Shown here: in pieces, positions 3,163-53,616 of the stretch
Layout: each line of letters begins with the position of its first letter
Numbering within the stretch: the first letter of the stretch is position 1
Assembly (NCBI GenBank): GCA_015066385.1
Contig: SVOJ01000017.1
Span: forward strand, 1 to 63,014
DNA: 63,014 bases
Reading direction: 5' to 3'
DNA from: Oscillospiraceae bacterium
GTDB taxonomy: Bacteria; Bacillota; Clostridia; Oscillospirales; Acutalibacteraceae
The notes under the pieces: generated by a model
Told to the model about the DNA's origin: nothing
What the model saw: the letters and a program-made list of their open reading frames with translations, nothing else
The model's database searches: none
Made by a program: the position numbers and the translations under genes

Positions 3163-4281
3163 TTAAACAATGCCGACGGCTCGTAAAACAAGCGGAAGAT
3201 ATTGCATCAAAAGATAAATCAAAATACAAGCAACAGCACTTATTACTGCGGCAGGCACGGAAACGCCGCCTTTTTGCTTGATTCTCTGCATATAATCCGG
3301 ACTTTGTCCGTACTGATCACGCACGGACAAAATATCGCCTTTTGCTTTTTTAAAATAAAATCCCGTTGCAAAAAAGCCGGAGAGAATCGGTAAGACATAA
3401 GAATAGATACCGGTTGAAATATAGGACCACATTTGTGTCACTTTTGAACAATTTTCGGCATAGGTCTGTACGGCAATGCTCATGTTTGCAGTCATATCAT
3501 CCATAATCTGCACCACATCCGCACCTGCCTGCTGTGCAAGCACAAGCGAATCAAAATACAGCTCCTTTGTTCTGTCCATATATTCCCAATATGCGGGGTC
3601 CGCAACGCAGACGGCAGCACCAATCGCTCCCATGGCAAACAGAATGCACAAAAACAAAATACCGATTTTGTTGAGTTTACGATAGAAAAACCATACAGGA
3701 CCGAGAGAAATACTACTGATCAATGCAACACCCGCCGCCCAGAATGCCGCCCAGTTCCAGGCGAGTCTGTTGCGACTCATGATGATGAACCGACGCACAT
3801 AGCCGCCCGATTTTCCGCCGACATACTCTGCATATTCCTGTACGGAAATGTCATCCACTTTTTCCTGCGGATTGAAACCGCCGTAAGTGCGGAAATCCTG
3901 ATACATCAGTTCGCGTTGCTCTTCATCTTCCAAAGGAGAGCCTGCTCTTGCAGATGCATTCGGATGAATCGGTTCATGGCATGCAGAACAATACAGTTCG
4001 TTTGCATAATTCTGCGCGCCGCAAAACGGACATTGTGTGATTTTTTCGGAATTTTCTTTTTCATTTCGGGATACGGCTGTTTCTTCCTTCTTTTTCTGTT
4101 CTTCGGTTTTGGGAGTATTCCAGGCAAATCCCGTATCATGTAACGGTGCATTTGCACAGCAACCATGTTCCTGCCAACAAGTTCTGTGTTGCGGTGTTCC
4201 GCAGACGGGACAAGTAACGATGTCATCTCCATCCACAAAGAGTTCACCGCAATAAGAACACGGCACATTCAGATATCGCAT
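3163..4281 (-). CDS. RING-finger/zinc-ribbon membrane protein
   Basis: A 372-residue protein. Residues 1-45 hold a cysteine/histidine cluster (CSYCGELF, CPVCGTPQHRTCW, HGCC) like the prokaryotic RING family (Prok-RING_1). A charged linker leads to a second zinc ribbon near residues 84-103 (CPFCGAQN, CSAC). The C-terminal half has four or so membrane segments, with WAAFWAAGVALISS and PVWFFYRKLNKIGIL resembling DUF2628 proteins. The sequence supports metal-binding cytoplasmic domains on a membrane anchor. Its role is unknown, and a bacterial RING fold does not imply ubiquitin ligase activity. It lies 16 bases upstream of rlmD on the same strand and has its own promoter. Confidence 0.75.
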   Translation of the reverse strand: MRYLNVPCSYCGELFVDGDDIVTCPVCGTPQHRTCWQEHGCCANAPLHDTGFAWNTPKTEEQKKKEETAVSRNEKENSEKITQCPFCGAQNYANELYCSACHEPIHPNASARAGSPLEDEEQRELMYQDFRTYGGFNPQEKVDDISVQEYAEYVGGKSGGYVRRFIIMSRNRLAWNWAAFWAAGVALISSISLGPVWFFYRKLNKIGILFLCILFAMGAIGAAVCVADPAYWEYMDRTKELYFDSLVLAQQAGADVVQIMDDMTANMSIAVQTYAENCSKVTQMWSYISTGIYSYVLPILSGFFATGFYFKKAKGDILSVRDQYGQSPDYMQRIKQKGGVSVPAAVISAVACILIYLLMQYLPLVLRAVGIV

Positions 4282-4325
4282 AGTAAAAAACTTCCTTTTT
4301 TTTCAGTATAATCTTCTAATATATT

Positions 4326-4354
4326 ATTGTAACGAAAAATATTAAACTTTGCAA
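4326..4354 (-). promoter_or_regulatory. Sigma-A type promoter for the RING protein and rlmD
   Basis: On the minus strand TTGCAA (4349-4354) and TACAAT (4326-4331) are 17 bases apart. The start at 4281 lies 45 bases further on, behind an AAGGAAG ribosome binding site. Confidence 0.65.
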
Positions 4355-4390
4355 CAACTTTTAAAAATATTCAGAGATTTTGAAAAAAGA

Positions 4391-4419
4391 TTGACAGAAT
4401 GACAAAACTTTCATATAAT
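4391..4419 (+). promoter_or_regulatory. Consensus promoter for prfB
   Basis: TTGACA (4391-4396), 17 bases, TATAAT (4414-4419): a perfect sigma-A consensus. It leaves a leader of about 107 bases before prfB. The leader contains ATCATGTGAT and a GC-rich part around 4470-4500; I recognise no known riboswitch in it. Confidence 0.85.
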
Positions 4420-4533
4420 AGATAGTCGGAAATAATTTTCATGAGGGATTATCATGTGATACAAACGGCTTCAGGGTGTCAGGCATGATCCGCACCCGCC
4501 CGAAAACGAAAACAACTTGAGAGGATATATACT

Positions 4534-5658
4534 ATGTTGCAATTTGAAGAATTAAGACTGAAACTGCTTGAAAATGAAAAACCCCTTGCAGACCTTGCAG
4601 ATGCACTCGGCATCAAAAAAATGGAAGAAGAAATTGCAAAACTGGAAGAACAGACCACGCAGGAATCTTTCTGGAATGATGTTGCAAACTCCAACAAGGT
4701 TCTGCAGAGAATAAGCAATCTCAAATCCAAACTGAAAAAGTACACCGACCTCAAAGGTCTTTATGAAGACACCCTTGTTCTCATTGAAATGAGCGACGAA
4801 ATGGAAGATGAATCCATGCTCGAAGAATGCACCATGAATGTTGACAAGGTCAAAGAGGATCTTGATGCGCAGACCCTTTCCACCCTGCTGTCGGGGCAGT
4901 ATGACAACAACAACGCCATTCTTACATTCCATGCGGGTGCCGGCGGAACGGAAGCACAGGACTGGGCTCTGATGCTGTTCCGCATGTATCACCGTTGGGG
5001 CGAACGCCACGGCTTCAAGACAAGCACACTTGACTATCTTGACGGCGAAGAAGCAGGACTTAAGTCCGCTGTTGTGCTCATCGAAGGCGAAAACGCATTC
5101 GGCTATCTTAAGAGTGAAATGGGCATTCATCGTCTTGTCCGTGTTTCCCCGTTCGACTCCTCCGGCCGCAGACACACCTCCTTCGCTTCTCTTGAAGTTA
5201 TGCCCGAAATTGACGACACCATTGAAGTTGACATCCGTCCCGAAGACATCAAGATGGACGTTTACCGTGCCAGCGGCGCAGGCGGACAGAAAGTTAACAA
5301 AACATCCTCCGCTGTTCGTCTGACCCATCTGCCGACGGGTATTGTCGTTTCCTGTCAGGTGGAACGCAGTCAGTTCCAGAACCGTGACGTTGCAATGAGA
5401 ATGCTCAAATCCAAACTCATTGAAATCAAAGAACGTGAACATCTTGATAACATTGCCGATATCAAGGGCGAACAGAAAGAAATCGGTTGGGGCAGTCAGA
5501 TCCGTTCCTATGTTTTCATGCCCTATACCCTTGCAAAAGACCATCGCACCGGTTTTGAAAATGGTAACATCAATGCCGTTATGGACGGCGACATTGACGG
5601 ATTTATCACCGCTTACCTGAAAATGCAGTCGCAGGCAAATCTTGCAAACAACGAATAA
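4534..5658 (+). CDS. prfB: Peptide chain release factor 2
   Basis: RF2 ends translation at UGA and UAA codons on the ribosome. The protein has 374 residues, about the family norm. It shows the SPF recognition tripeptide at 205-207 (VRVSPFDSSGRRHTSFAS) and the catalytic GGQ at 250-252 (RASGAGGQKVNKT), whose glutamine contacts the peptidyl-transferase centre. The start at 4534 follows a GAGAGGAT site by 8 bases. Many bacteria control RF2 through an in-frame UGA near codon 25; here the frame is continuous from the ATG, so that autoregulatory frameshift is absent. It is transcribed alone from a consensus promoter. Confidence 0.97.
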   Translation: MLQFEELRLKLLENEKPLADLADALGIKKMEEEIAKLEEQTTQESFWNDVANSNKVLQRISNLKSKLKKYTDLKGLYEDTLVLIEMSDEMEDESMLEECTMNVDKVKEDLDAQTLSTLLSGQYDNNNAILTFHAGAGGTEAQDWALMLFRMYHRWGERHGFKTSTLDYLDGEEAGLKSAVVLIEGENAFGYLKSEMGIHRLVRVSPFDSSGRRHTSFASLEVMPEIDDTIEVDIRPEDIKMDVYRASGAGGQKVNKTSSAVRLTHLPTGIVVSCQVERSQFQNRDVAMRMLKSKLIEIKEREHLDNIADIKGEQKEIGWGSQIRSYVFMPYTLAKDHRTGFENGNINAVMDGDIDGFITAYLKMQSQANLANNE

Positions 5659-47640: not shown

Positions 47641-50600
47641 TTACTTCAGAATAACGCCCTGATTGCCGAGCAGATCCCAACGGGCTTTGAAGGTACTGCT
47701 GCTGAACGACAGACAGGCATTGTCATAGGGATCCATCATATAAACTTTACTGCCGTCATAACCGCACAATACGGTGACATGCGTTCCGCGCGGATATGAG
47801 AAATATTCATACTTGCCATTGCCGCGATCGATATACCATTCATTGACCGTAGTAGGCACATTCATGTTGTAGGTAGACCACACGATAACAGGATAACCGT
47901 CTGCAAGATAGCCGAGCAGCTCGTTGTAAGAGCATCCCGTGATGCACACAGCCGTTTCATCACCGCCGACGTAATCCACCGCATACTGCAAAGCCTTTGT
48001 AACGGCAGGTGAAAATACACCGTACCCGGGATTTTCACTTGTGTAGGTACAGGTCGGATCGCCGACAAATTTTTCATTGATATCGGGACCGACGGGATAG
48101 CCGTTGATATAGCGGATGTTTTCACGCGGGATAATGCTGACCATGTTTGCGGTTGTGAAGTTATAGCCGTAATAGCGAAGAAGCATTGCGCAACTTGCCG
48201 CTTCACATCCCGTGGGATAATTCGGCAACTGGCTGACGAGCGGCACCTGCATACGGGTTACATTGATTCTGCAGGTTGCGGTCTTGCCGTTGCTCGTTTT
48301 GGCGGTAATGGTTGCCGTGCCCATTTTCAGTACATGTACAAGACCGTCAGCGTTGACGGTAGCAACAGACGTATCGGAACTTGTGAAGGTTGCACCGGTA
48401 TATGCATCTTTATTCTGATCGTACACGGTAACATAGAACCAACTACCCTGCGACTGCGAATAAGAACTGTAGCCGAAAGAAATCGAAGTCGGCACTACTT
48501 TGACCGTAACGGTGCAGGTTGCTTTTTTGCCGTTGAATGTGGTCGCGGTGATCGTTACCGTACCGGGAGCAACGGCGATAACCGTTCCGTCTGCGGCAAC
48601 ACGGGCAATGGATGCATCGGTTGAGGAGAATGTGATTGCCGAAGAATATGCACCGCTGTTGACCGTTGCTTTCAGGCGATAGCGGGCATCCACATCCAGC
48701 GTCATTGTTGTTTTGTCCAGTGTAATCGAAGTGGGAGCCGCCTGGATCGTTACCGTACAAGAACCTTTTACACCGTTGGTCAGTGTAACCGTAACGGTAA
48801 CCTTCCCTGCTTTTCTTGCAATCAGATGATGTTCCTCATTCAGATAGGCAATACTTTCATCGGATACCGTCCAGACCGCATTTTCGAGTCCCGTACCCGT
48901 ATCCGTGGTTGCGGACATACGAGAATACATACCGACCGCAAAAGTCATGGCGGAAGATGTAACAGTCACCTTGGTTGCTCGCTCGGAAACGGTGTAGGTG
49001 CAGGTAGCGGTAATGCCGTTGTAAGCAGTAACCGTAACCTTTGCTGTACCCGCCTTAACAGCAGTCACCTTGCCTTGTGCATCCACTGTCACAACAGAAT
49101 TGTCAGAACTTGCAAAAGTCACTCGACCGAGGTAAGCATCCACCTCGGCGGATGCAGTCAGAACATGTGTATCTCCCACATAAAGAGCGTGGGATGTCTT
49201 GTTCAGTTTCAGTTTGGCGGGGGCGGCAAGCACCGTAATATAACAAGTTGCCTTCATTTCGTTGTAGAGAACTGCCGTGACGGTCGCCGTACCGGCCGCA
49301 TTGACTGTCACAATACCGTTGTTCACGCTCGCAACAGCAGAATTGTCACTGCTCCAGACTACACGGGAAAGATCAATTCCAGTATCGACCTGCGCTGTCA
49401 ATTGCAGTTGCATCCCGACACCGATTTCCGCATCGGTCTTTGAAAGTGTGAATTCCTGCGGTGCATTCACAACGGTAACGGCGCAAGAAGCCGTTCTGCC
49501 GTCGGTTGCGGTTGCTTTCAGGGTTACCGTACCTGACTGCAAGGCGGTAATGGTACCGTCAGCAGACACTTGCAGAACAGAACCAAAACCGCTGTAACGC
49601 AGATTTTTCGGTGTTGTTGCATCGGAGAGAACGGGATTTTTAATCTGTTCGCCGACACCGAGGGTCAATGCTGTTTTTTCAAAACGCAAAGCCTTATCTG
49701 CAACAACAGTCACACGCATCTGTGCGGTAACAGCATTGTAAAGGGTGGCGGTGATGGTTGCAGTTCCTGCTTTCAATGCAGTCAGAACACCGTTTTCGTC
49801 CACACGAACAACGGTCGGATCACTGCTTTCATATGTACGCGCAAAAGATCCTGTCCCATTCAGAAGAAGTTCACCAATATCGGTTTCACCGACATGCATC
49901 ACCATATTCTCCACGGCAAAACGTGCACTCTCCGCGGCAGGAAGTACGGTTACGTTCACATATACATCACCGACCGAAGTACGTACAATCACCTGCGTTT
50001 TGCCGCATTTTACGGCAGTAATTACACCGTCGACAGCAACACTGACCGTTTGTTCATCTGCTGTCAGATAGGTGGTTTCACCGAATGCATAGGTAGCCAG
50101 GCTGACCGTTTCACCGACACCGAGGATTATATTGGCTCCTTTTTTTTCAACCGTGACAGCAACCGGTGCCGCGGCACCGTCACAGGCGATACCGTTTATG
50201 TAGCGGTAGGCACAAACGGAAACGGAACCGGAAGTCAGAAGATCAGCGGAAAAATCATATTGTGTTTTTTGCACATCGGCAATGCAGACAGCATCTGCAA
50301 ACACTTTATAGCCATCCGCACCGTTGACGGGTTCCCACACAAGTGAGTACTGCCCCTTGTTAATGACAGCCTGCGTAACGATCGGTGCAGCAGGAGTCGT
50401 GTAAGCAGTAAGCACATCGGATGTCGCAAGCAGGTTGTCATCCGTATCCACCGCTTGCACACGGAAAAACAGTTCCGCACCATCATCCAAGCCCTCAATG
50501 CGCTTTGTGGTATCGGTTGATTCGGATGTAATCAGATCCCAGCCATCAACCTCATATAAATAAATGTTGTAATAAGCCGCATTCGGAACGACATCCCATA

Positions 50601-50769
50601 CAAGATCAACCGCATTTTGCGCAATCCCGGAAACATCCTGCGAGAATGCAAACGTTTCGGCCGCTTGTGCCTGTGTCGAAAAAGCAGACGAAACAGGCGC
50701 AATACAAGCCAACGTCAGAGCAATTGTCAACGCGAACGCAACAAAAACGGATAAAACATTTTTCTTCAA
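47641..50769 (-). CDS. Secreted Big_2-repeat protein with C39-like peptidase
   Basis: 1042 residues from a TTG at 50769, with AGAGGTG upstream; ATG starts lie only inside the signal peptide. The signal is followed by two Fn3-like domains (about 40-210) and about eight Big_2 repeats (pattern ASC-V-V, then SSDNSVATV, VTAVKAGTATVTAT). The last 200 residues are a papain-like Peptidase_C39_2 domain: the Cys in PNYPTGCEAASCAMLLRYYG, the His in RGTHVTVLCGYDGS and the Asp in YMMDPYDN. It is probably a long-stalked surface cysteine peptidase. Its substrate is unknown. The dockerin gene follows in the same operon. Confidence 0.85.
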   Translation of the reverse strand: MKKNVLSVFVAFALTIALTLACIAPVSSAFSTQAQAAETFAFSQDVSGIAQNAVDLVWDVVPNAAYYNIYLYEVDGWDLITSESTDTTKRIEGLDDGAELFFRVQAVDTDDNLLATSDVLTAYTTPAAPIVTQAVINKGQYSLVWEPVNGADGYKVFADAVCIADVQKTQYDFSADLLTSGSVSVCAYRYINGIACDGAAAPVAVTVEKKGANIILGVGETVSLATYAFGETTYLTADEQTVSVAVDGVITAVKCGKTQVIVRTSVGDVYVNVTVLPAAESARFAVENMVMHVGETDIGELLLNGTGSFARTYESSDPTVVRVDENGVLTALKAGTATITATLYNAVTAQMRVTVVADKALRFEKTALTLGVGEQIKNPVLSDATTPKNLRYSGFGSVLQVSADGTITALQSGTVTLKATATDGRTASCAVTVVNAPQEFTLSKTDAEIGVGMQLQLTAQVDTGIDLSRVVWSSDNSAVASVNNGIVTVNAAGTATVTAVLYNEMKATCYITVLAAPAKLKLNKTSHALYVGDTHVLTASAEVDAYLGRVTFASSDNSVVTVDAQGKVTAVKAGTAKVTVTAYNGITATCTYTVSERATKVTVTSSAMTFAVGMYSRMSATTDTGTGLENAVWTVSDESIAYLNEEHHLIARKAGKVTVTVTLTNGVKGSCTVTIQAAPTSITLDKTTMTLDVDARYRLKATVNSGAYSSAITFSSTDASIARVAADGTVIAVAPGTVTITATTFNGKKATCTVTVKVVPTSISFGYSSYSQSQGSWFYVTVYDQNKDAYTGATFTSSDTSVATVNADGLVHVLKMGTATITAKTSNGKTATCRINVTRMQVPLVSQLPNYPTGCEAASCAMLLRYYGYNFTTANMVSIIPRENIRYINGYPVGPDINEKFVGDPTCTYTSENPGYGVFSPAVTKALQYAVDYVGGDETAVCITGCSYNELLGYLADGYPVIVWSTYNMNVPTTVNEWYIDRGNGKYEYFSYPRGTHVTVLCGYDGSKVYMMDPYDNACLSFSSSTFKARWDLLGNQGVILK

Positions 50770-50808
50770 AGAGCAACACCTCTTAACACACAAAAACATA
50801 TTTATTTA

Positions 50809-50919: not shown

Positions 50920-51699
50920 TCAAAGAACTTTGCTTAAAAAAGTTTTCAGACGTTCCGTCTGCGGATTGGCAAAAAATTCCTGCGGCGTATTTTCTTCTGC
51001 AATAACACCTTCGTCAATGAACAGAACACGCGTGCCGACTTCACGGGCAAAACCCATTTCGTGCGTAACAACCACCATGGTCATGCCGCTTGCGGCAAGT
51101 TCTTTCATAACATCCAGCACTTCACCGACCATTTCGGGGTCGAGTGCGCTTGTAGGTTCGTCAAAAAGCATGACTTTAGGGTTCATTGCCAGTGCTCTTG
51201 CGATGGCAACACGCTGTTTCTGACCGCCCGAAAGAGTGGACGGATACGCATTTGCCTTTTCTTCAAGACCGACTCTGCGCAAAAGTCGTCTTGCTTCTTC
51301 CTCGCAACGGGCTTTGAGTTCCTTTGCGGTTTTCGGTCCCGTATACTGCGGGTCTTTTTTCAGTTTTCTGAGTTTCTTTTTGCCAAGGCAATAGGGGGCG
51401 AGCATGACATTGTCGAGCACGGTCTTGTTGTTGAACAGATTGAACTGCTGAAACACCATGCCGATTTTTTCACGGTGGCGGTTGATGTCAACATGAATAT
51501 TGGCAATGTCTTCGCCTTCAAAAATGATGGAACCCGAAGTGGGATCTTCCATGCAGTTCAGGCAACGCAGAAAAGTACTCTTACCGCTGCCTGAGGGGCC
51601 GATCACAACGACCTTTTCGCCTTCATGGATGGTGGTGGTAATGCCTTTGAGCACTTCGTGCTCTCCGAAACTCTTGTGCAGATCAACGACGTCTATCAC
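50920..51699 (-). CDS. Polar amino acid ABC transporter ATP-binding protein
   Basis: 259 residues from GTG 51699 ([17 protein letters not shown]), with GGAAAGGTGG upstream, overlapping the permease end by 17 bases. Walker A is [15 protein letters not shown], the Q-loop MVFQQFNLF, the signature [15 protein letters not shown] and Walker [15 protein letters not shown], then VVVTHEM. A 30-residue lysine-rich insert ([20 protein letters not shown]) after the Q-loop is seen in clostridial members. Family HisP/GlnQ. The ligand is set by the binding protein. Confidence 0.93.
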
Positions 51700-52516
51700 T
51701 TTTTGCCAACCACCTTTCCATAATTTTAAGACCAATGGTAATTACAACAACAAGCACAATGTAAATCACCGAAAGCACGATGTACGGTACGGTATATTCA
51801 TATGTGCTTGTACCGATCTGTTTGAATGCATAAACAAGATCGAGTGCGCCTGCATAACCGATAATGGATGTTTCCTTAATAAGTGCAATAAACTCGTTGC
51901 CGAGGGTCGGCAGAATGTTTTTGATTGCCTGCGGAACCACAATTTTGAGCATGGACGCGGAATAACTGAAGCCAACCGCACGGGCGGCTTCCAACTGACC
52001 GGGATCCACGGAATTGATACCGCCGCGCATGATTTCGGACACATACGCACCGCTGTTGACACCGAAAATGATGATACTTGCTTCAACGGCGCTCAGTTTG
52101 AAGCCCATCGACGGGAACAAAACGAAGTAGCCGAGCAACAACTGCACCATAACGGGGGTTCCGCGAAACAGAGCAACATACAGCGAGCATATTTTTTTGA
52201 GAATGGCAGGTATGCGTTGCAATACCCACATAATTGCAAAAAACAGATAATAGAATGTGACAACACGCAACAAAGGCTTTTTCGGAAAACGAGCCAGAAA
52301 ACGGTCATAACGGCTCTGCATGGCATAAGGCAGGATCGGATACTTCGGCATAACGCTGATGACAGCGATCACGCAACCGATGACCATACCGATGATAAGA
52401 CCGAGCACGGCAACCTTTACGGTATTTTCAAGGCCGGTAATAACCTGCTTGTAACCGCCTTTGTCGATAAAGTTGACAATGAATTTACCCCATTTGAGGG
52501 AAAAGTCTGTCAGCAT
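51683..52516 (-). CDS. Polar amino acid ABC transporter permease
   Basis: 277 residues of the HisM/GlnP family. The family EAA-like loop is [36 protein letters not shown], preceded by [19 protein letters not shown]. An insert with [26 protein letters not shown] in the first half makes it longer than the 220-residue norm. The ATG follows GGTGAAAAGAG. A terminator-like hairpin lies between it and the binding-protein gene. Confidence 0.93.
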
Positions 52517-52626: not shown

Positions 52627-53616
52627 TCAGCCGTTTACGCCTGCAACGATGTTGTTTGCGGGAGCTTCGTCAATAACAACATAAGCAATGTTGCCGTTGA
52701 TGATATCCTGCACAGCAAATGCGCCGTTGGAGTAGCCGACACCTTCAAGGTTTGCAAAGCCGTTAAAGCCCCAGTCTGCATCGCCGACAACATAGAAGCC
52801 GCCGGTGGTGCCGGTCTGATAACCGACCTTGGTGCCTTCTGCAAGACCTGCAAGAACAGCTTCTGCATCAGCTGCGGTTGCACAAGCATCAAAAGCGGTG
52901 TCAGCAGCGGGAGCAATGATCTTCTGGGAAGCATTGTAGTAAGAGGTGGAGAAATCAAGAATTTCTTCGCGTTCAGGCTTGATGGTCAGGCCGGAAGCAG
53001 CGACATCGCACATACCTTCACCCACAGCGGTGCAGACGGAGTCGAATTCCATGTCGTTGACAGCAAGGGTCTTACCGAGAGACTGTGCAAACAGGTTCAT
53101 GATTTCGATATCAACACCGTAGTAGTATTCGCCTTCAACATATTCGAAGGGAGCGAATGCAGCGTTGGTAGCGATAACAAGCTGATTGTCGGAAGCGCCG
53201 ACAGTTGCATCAGCAATCAGCACGCCTTCGGGAGTACCGTCACCGAAGTACTTGTTCATGATTTCGTCGAATTTGCCGTTTTCCTGAATTTCAGCAAGAA
53301 AATCGTTGAGCTGGCCGAGCAGTTCGGTGTTGCCCTTGGTAACTGCAAAAGCATACTGTTCTTCGGTCAGGGGGATGTCGATGACCTTGAGAATGCCTTC
53401 AACAACATCGTCTGCCACATCGCCTGCGGAAACATTACCGTCTGCCACATCGCCTGCGGAAACATTACCGTCGGTAACATTGCCGTCGGAAACAATTGCG
53501 TCACCGTCGGAAACTGCGTTGGTGGGATCTTCAGCATCCTTGCTGCAAGCGGCGAAACAGCCGATTACAAGGCAAAGTGCTACAAGAACGGAAAGAATGG
53601 ATACAAACTTTTTCAT
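52627..53616 (-). CDS. Amino acid binding lipoprotein, apparently circularly permuted
   Basis: 329 residues of the SBP_bac_3 family with its parts in the wrong order. After a lipoprotein signal (Cys24) and a repetitive linker (35-70, with DGNVSAGDVAD twice), residues 74-128 read VIDIPLTEEQYAFAVTKGN to FDEIMNKYFGDG, which is the usual C-terminus. The normal N-terminus then starts at about 145 (QLVIATNAAFAPFEYV, FDSVCTAVGEGMCDVAASG, GTKVGYQTGTTGG), and the chain ends at AYVVIDEAPANNIVAGVNG, exactly where the missing segment would continue. The fold could still close. The start has AAAGGAG. Ligand unknown; probably a polar amino acid. Confidence 0.85.
   Translation of the reverse strand: MKKFVSILSVLVALCLVIGCFAACSKDAEDPTNAVSDGDAIVSDGNVTDGNVSAGDVADGNVSAGDVADDVVEGILKVIDIPLTEEQYAFAVTKGNTELLGQLNDFLAEIQENGKFDEIMNKYFGDGTPEGVLIADATVGASDNQLVIATNAAFAPFEYVEGEYYYGVDIEIMNLFAQSLGKTLAVNDMEFDSVCTAVGEGMCDVAASGLTIKPEREEILDFSTSYYNASQKIIAPAADTAFDACATAADAEAVLAGLAEGTKVGYQTGTTGGFYVVGDADWGFNGFANLEGVGYSNGAFAVQDIINGNIAYVVIDEAPANNIVAGVNG
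53411..53470. repeat. Exact 30-bp tandem duplication in the linker
   Basis: Two perfect 30-base copies (53411-53440, 53441-53470) encode NVSAGDVADG twice; degenerate copies flank them (DGNVTDG, SDGDAIVSDG). Copy number could vary by slippage. Confidence 0.9.

Follow-up and report, generated by a model that had tools for sequence, protein, structure and literature searches.

A circularly permuted amino-acid binding lipoprotein in an Oscillospiraceae ABC importer operon and related lobe-2 permutations in Clostridia

Has the binding protein encoded next to an amino-acid importer in contig SVOJ01000017.1 of an Oscillospiraceae bacterium (assembly GCA_015066385.1) truly been circularly permuted, and, if so, is it alone in this? 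The window analysed here is the whole 63,014-nucleotide stretch of that contig, and the gene, its parts and its importer partners are listed in Table 1. A first-pass annotation of the locus had claimed that the segment which usually closes an SBP_bac_3 protein comes before the normal N-terminus, and that joining the end of the chain to its start restores a standard protein. In order to describe chain orders, we divided the family into four segments, S1-S2-S3-S4 in the normal order, and refer to the order S4-S1-S2-S3 as P1.

Table 1. Coordinates of the permuted gene, its parts and its importer partners in the window
Feature	Position	Strand	Details
ABC importer ATPase (GlnQ-like)	50920..51735	(-)	true start probably inside the listed ORF
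Amino-acid ABC importer permease (BPD_transp_1)	51683..52516	(-)	277 aa
Circularly permuted SBP_bac_3 lipoprotein gene	52627..53616	(-)	329 aa; stop codon 52627-52629
Residues 223-329 (S2-S3)	52630..52950	(-)	hinge 1 and remaining lobe 2; conserved D316; new C-terminus
Residues 144-222 (S1)	52951..53187	(-)	lobe-1 N-terminal segment; conserved T211 and R216
Residues 128-143	53188..53235	(-)	linker joining the old C- and N-termini
Residues 74-127 (S4)	53236..53397	(-)	last lobe-2 strand, hinge strand 2 and lobe-1 C-terminal segment
Residues 25-73	53398..53544	(-)	linker, predicted disordered; pLDDT < 50 at residues 23-71
30-bp repeat within the linker	53409..53494	(-)	2.9 copies
Residues 1-24	53545..53616	(-)	signal peptide ending in the predicted lipid-bearing Cys24; model helix 2-24

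All four SBP_bac_3 segments are present in the window protein, each once, in the order S4-S1-S2-S3. Its match to PF00497 (1.7e-30; 105.9 bits against a cut-off of 26.4) falls into two out-of-order stretches, profile positions 97-131 being encoded ahead of positions 1-96 in the PF00497 search at genome level. Residues 74-126 align with positions 171-223 of the Escherichia coli glutamine-binding protein (GlnBP; 1ggg) and residues 143-240 with positions 2-99, so that the segment order is swapped and S4, the C-terminal segment of normal-order proteins, does precede the normal N-terminus, as the first-pass annotation had it. When the chain was rotated in silico by joining residues 142-329 to residues 75-127, it aligned with positions 2-222 of 1ggg in one stretch with a whole-sequence score of 85.4 bits, versus two out-of-order stretches (56.5 and 22.6 bits) and a whole-sequence score of 80.6 bits for the natural order. 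Rotation gains continuity and coverage more than score, and the claim that joining end to start yields a standard protein holds. The new chain ends fall at about GlnBP position 171, in lobe 2 and just ahead of the last strand entering hinge strand 2. The protein, which becomes whole on rotation, is a circular permutant: it has a significant match to SBP_bac_3 and lacks the canonical segment order, and because of that order we consider it a permuted derivative of the family rather than a canonical member.

Structure prediction agrees with this assignment. In the AlphaFold model, pLDDT exceeds 90 in 20 of the 25 ten-residue blocks from residue 81 on, and the pTM is 0.69 with the tail included. 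Most of the sequential structure alignments listed by Foldseek start at model residues 138-146 (some rows start at 94-98), as in the alignment of model residues 138-329 with residues 21-196 of TmArgBP (6ggp), and thus do not include residues 74-128, the outcome expected of a permuted chain. The top structural matches belong to the GlnBP/ArgBP group of amino-acid binding proteins, presumably type II; such a ranking does not by itself speak against the type Ic / cluster Bc family of TpMglB-2, whose marks are a type I fold and a fourth hinge crossing.

The N-terminal linker of the window protein (49 residues) is the longest among the aligned relatives, the spacing from the last N-terminal Cys to the core being 20-34 residues in the five closest relatives and 3-11 in the other 16 aligned. 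A 30-bp tandem duplication had been reported in this linker; the 30-bp repeat is indeed there, but with 2.9 copies it is not a simple duplication. We rejected a tie between the repeat and the permutation, because the linkers of relatives are far shorter; the repeat is not part of the rearrangement. As a separate observation, the signal peptide and DGN-type linker (window 53398-53616) are similar to the initial 72 residues of a second protein encoded in this genome (G000:C27:57577-57804; 63%), which hints at a repetitive lipoprotein linker shared between the two genes.

A search for the same order in relatives found it widely. Related loci on named contigs number 23. In 21 of these the product is a complete, collinear permuted protein at 46-95% identity; the other two are L056, a normal-order relative, and L055, a frame-split copy (3854-4752) in which the permuted gene runs over two frames, through either a sequencing error or breakage of the copy. 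Further genome searches brought the collection to 82 distinct P1 proteins. Taking 270 bits or more as a full-length P1 match, we found one in 29 of the 394 genomes of the order sample and in 27 of the 391 genomes of the class sample (the window's own genome is counted in both), and the P1 genomes of these two samples carry 14 family codes in total. In the phylum sample P1 is found in 2 of 398 genomes, namely the window's genome and one class-mate, and plasmid records yielded no relative at E 1e-15. Comparison of the core with five relatives gave dN/dS values of 0.038, 0.070, 0.149, 0.069 and 0.170, that is, purifying selection in all five comparisons. The P1 order is neither an artefact nor recent; it is old and common to many Clostridia.

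A permease is encoded near all 82 P1 genes within a loose window and, by a stricter count, lies directly downstream in 80 and is fused in one; an ATPase is found near 78, and in the four misses the sequence extends only 616-1500 bases beyond the gene. In the window permease, 40 extra residues stand between the first transmembrane helix and the conserved FRGTP region, an insert shared with its closest relatives only. A link of this insert to the permutation was considered and rejected: among 12 aligned permeases it is present in the window and in L034, L036 and L038, and missing from the 8 others, P1 ones included. Permeases of 277 aa also occur in L005-L009, those of the other congeners (L015-L018, L020 and L021) being 234-268 aa long. 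Elsewhere in the window, positions 47641-50799 encode a predicted secreted protein of 1052 aa with, by eye, many Ig-like-looking repeats and a C-terminal stretch resembling a C39-type peptidase.

P1 is not the only permuted order: three more cut sites, P2, P3 and P4, occur in the subfamily. We classed the 51 distinct single-domain proteins that begin with S3 by the length of the tail after S1. In 32 the tail has 15-21 residues, the cut being where hinge strand 1 ends in lobe 2 (P3); in 16 it has 26-40 residues, four of these having 26-33, and the cut falls between S2 and S3 (P2); in the other three it has 49-50 residues, with the cut within S3 (P4). The cuts of L104 (tail of 33) and L225-L227 (tail of 26) belong at the P2 position (36-40) or close to it, rather than at that of P3 (15-21). 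A divergent group with P1 order, P1d, comprises 12 proteins; the comparison set consisted of 32 proteins in normal order and 11 domains taken from tandem proteins. Outside the class, among the matches listed, P4 occurs in G895, G1076 and G1030, P3 in G879, and a cut at the P2 position in G896, G812 and G983, with G843, truncated by a contig end, left without a cut-site class. A profile of the joined lobe 1 matched 57 of 381 genomes of the class sample over its full span at 160 bits or more (a profile count, with only part of the matches opened), and the next match, a normal-type partial at 151.6 bits, lies below a clear gap. In at least 3 of these 57 lobe-1-continuous genomes the matching frame reaches 500 residues or more, and these frames are probably permease fusions. 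At one locus (L086, 2988-4761) a P1 gene adjoins a P2 gene, so that a single genome holds two different permutations.

Each of the four cut sites is in lobe 2. Lobe 1 is consequently uninterrupted, and it is to lobe 2 that the lipid anchor, or a fused permease, would be attached. Search profiles A2 and A3 favour intact S4-S1 adjacency and could miss lobe-1 permutants, and for this reason we do not claim that only lobe 2 can be cut. Model positions 2-12 and 48-70 are where the listed matches of the order sample begin, the sole exception being a contig-end fragment at 104; this argues weakly against common lobe-1 cuts.

How many times these forms arose was addressed with trees of aligned rotated sequences. 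ORFs running off contig ends (except L065), partial or odd orders, and near-identical rows above class thresholds were excluded; 88 rows were kept after filtering, 7 more were dropped before the first tree and 13 before the binding-residue alignment, and the rows are biased in that the normal ones are mostly the best-scoring. A single clade was rejected by the AU test for all permuted rows (p=1.6e-7), for P1 with P1d (p=2e-6), for P3 (p=0.003; 0.004 without the P2-position protein L104) and for P2 including L104 (p=3e-5); one origin was not rejected for P1 alone (p=0.35) or P1d alone (p=0.089). The rejection of a joint P1 and P1d clade implies that the same order was reached independently. On the 99-row tree, in which the bootstrap had not settled and P3_L237 sits on a very long branch, we counted 12 changes between permuted and normal order, gains or losses, and 15 among all order classes when P1d is counted with P1 and tandem rows with normal ones. 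The permuted forms arose several times.

One could still picture a single old permutation whose cut later slid along the chain, the normal-order proteins inside permuted groups being reversals. P1 and P2 proper do group together, beside the normal protein L056 (99/89 on the 99-row tree and 88/53 on the other tree), so one may derive from the other, and P1d is compatible with a single group. However, the four clade rejections and the 12 order changes speak against a single event, and the reversals that it calls for are repeated rearrangements themselves; we regard this scenario as unlikely. Even less probable is that the permutation is only apparent, the gene being a fusion that joins two incomplete binding domains or the remnant of a decayed tandem pair. 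The first-pass annotation had named such a fusion as the case that would undo its reading, and tandem SBP_bac_3 arrays do occur in relatives. Nevertheless, the four segments occur once each, none missing, in all 82 P1 proteins (a class defined by that order, with partial or frame-split copies such as L055 falling outside it), the rotated chain aligns over its full length with single-domain proteins as one whole normal protein, and the core is under purifying selection. As a description of the present state this reading is refuted, and what little probability it retains is solely as a past route. That the order is an assembly or binning artefact of metagenome-assembled genomes can be dismissed with near certainty: many relatives, like the window itself, were taken from fragmented assemblies, yet P1 is found with intact frames in 82 distinct proteins and in the single-contig genomes G615, G643 and G762.

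The window gene thus very probably encodes a functional lipoprotein that binds amino acids for an ABC importer, permuted in lobe 2 and with its tether moved; it is one of several permuted forms that arose separately. All 99 aligned rows, whatever their chain order, retain equivalents of R216 and D316, the Arg and Asp expected to grip the backbone of a bound amino acid; equivalents of F191, T211 and T271 are present in 93, 89 and 96 of the 99, respectively. The chain would start at the last lobe-2 strand, cross hinge strand 2 and build lobe 1 without a break, from the former C-terminal segment through a short linker to the former N-terminal one, then cross hinge strand 1 and end in lobe 2. As the hinge strands and binding residues are kept, ligand should bind by ordinary Venus-flytrap closure.

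The lipid anchor, in turn, would sit on lobe 2 in place of lobe 1. A lipobox, called with a pattern of our own rather than a trained predictor, is found in 79 of the 82 P1 proteins, and the median distance from the predicted lipid Cys to the first segment match is 8 residues in P1 and P1d, 3 in P2, 16 in P3 (unmatched S2 residues included) and 14 in normal proteins, the bins being set by segment match. In L077 (262-1833; P1), L096 (2219-3778; P3) and L099 (2708-4237; P3) the permuted binding domain is fused to a permease. The chain enters the permease, identified by Pfam, from lobe 2 in these three and in L122; by eye, lobe 2 also leads into a permease in L231 (2261-3757), and the length of L230 suggests a fusion of the same kind. 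L122 (620-4288(+); 1223 aa, four S4-S1 units) and L242 (2529-4790(+); 754 aa, two S4-S1 units, its permease recognized by eye) combine tandem binding domains in the P3 register with a permease, and tandem arrays in the normal register occur in L117-L121 and L243. The evidence supports a move of the attachment point from lobe 1 to lobe 2. That the permutation alters how ligand binding is signalled, as initially proposed, is a guess.

As for the route, tandem duplication and fusion of a binding domain followed by loss of its outer parts appears most likely. The tandem arrays (L117-L122, L242 and L243) would provide a natural bridge, trimming in a different register giving a permutant; among the P1d, P2 and P3 ends read, we found no half-way gene with overlapping duplicated ends. 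A bolder and doubtful suggestion is that a lobe-2 tether or fusion has been repeatedly selected in Clostridia, flytrap closure pulling on the membrane or permease and so producing a ligand-gated docking that would be absent under lobe-1 tethering. In ionotropic glutamate receptors the pore is attached at the same lobe (lobe 2) and, for P3, at nearly the same chain position.

After rotation, the window protein shows full-length homology to GlnBP (1ggg), the Thermotoga maritima arginine-binding protein (6ggp) and SBD1-SBD2 of Lactococcus lactis GlnP (6h30), and it shares with SBP_bac_3 amino-acid binding proteins the same binding residues and the same kind of operon partners. It differs from them in chain order and in attachment, since the lipid anchor or, in fused relatives, the permease would be joined to lobe 2, in place of lobe 1. 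GlnP-type fusions of binding domains to permeases likewise have tandem or fused counterparts among the relatives (L117-L121); they enter the permease from the lobe-1 end, whereas L077 (P1), L096 and L099 (P3) and L122 (P3 register) do so from lobe 2.

One study reportedly dealt with permuted halves of the ribose-binding protein. Our literature search, with most subscription journals outside its scope, returned biosensor engineering and unrelated work and no natural type-II permuted binding protein. The window family is presumably type II and cut in lobe 2, with its hinge strands in place, four cut sites and several origins, and in this it stands apart from a permutant already described. TpMglB-2 (Tp0684) of Treponema pallidum has been described as a natural circularly permuted type I / cluster B glucose-binding lipoprotein that keeps its fold, ligand binding and conformational change, with relatives in treponemes and Gram-positive bacteria and a suggested link to tethering (PMC4990184). 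Both proteins are naturally permuted, tethered binding proteins of ABC importers. TpMglB-2 presumably differs in its fold class and its sugar ligand, and has rearranged N-lobe strands and a fourth hinge crossing (PMC4990184). Natural permutant binding proteins were therefore already known; within the literature searched, the type-II case, the many cut sites and the repeated origin appear new.

The finding in the window is the visible corner of a larger pattern. It also carries a warning, as profile searches and domain annotation hide such rearrangements, and Pfam here simply reports the family in two stretches. With several permutations, four cut sites and close relatives of normal order, all in operons of one kind, the family amounts to a natural experiment on the origin of permutations and on the importance, if any, of the anchored lobe for ABC import.
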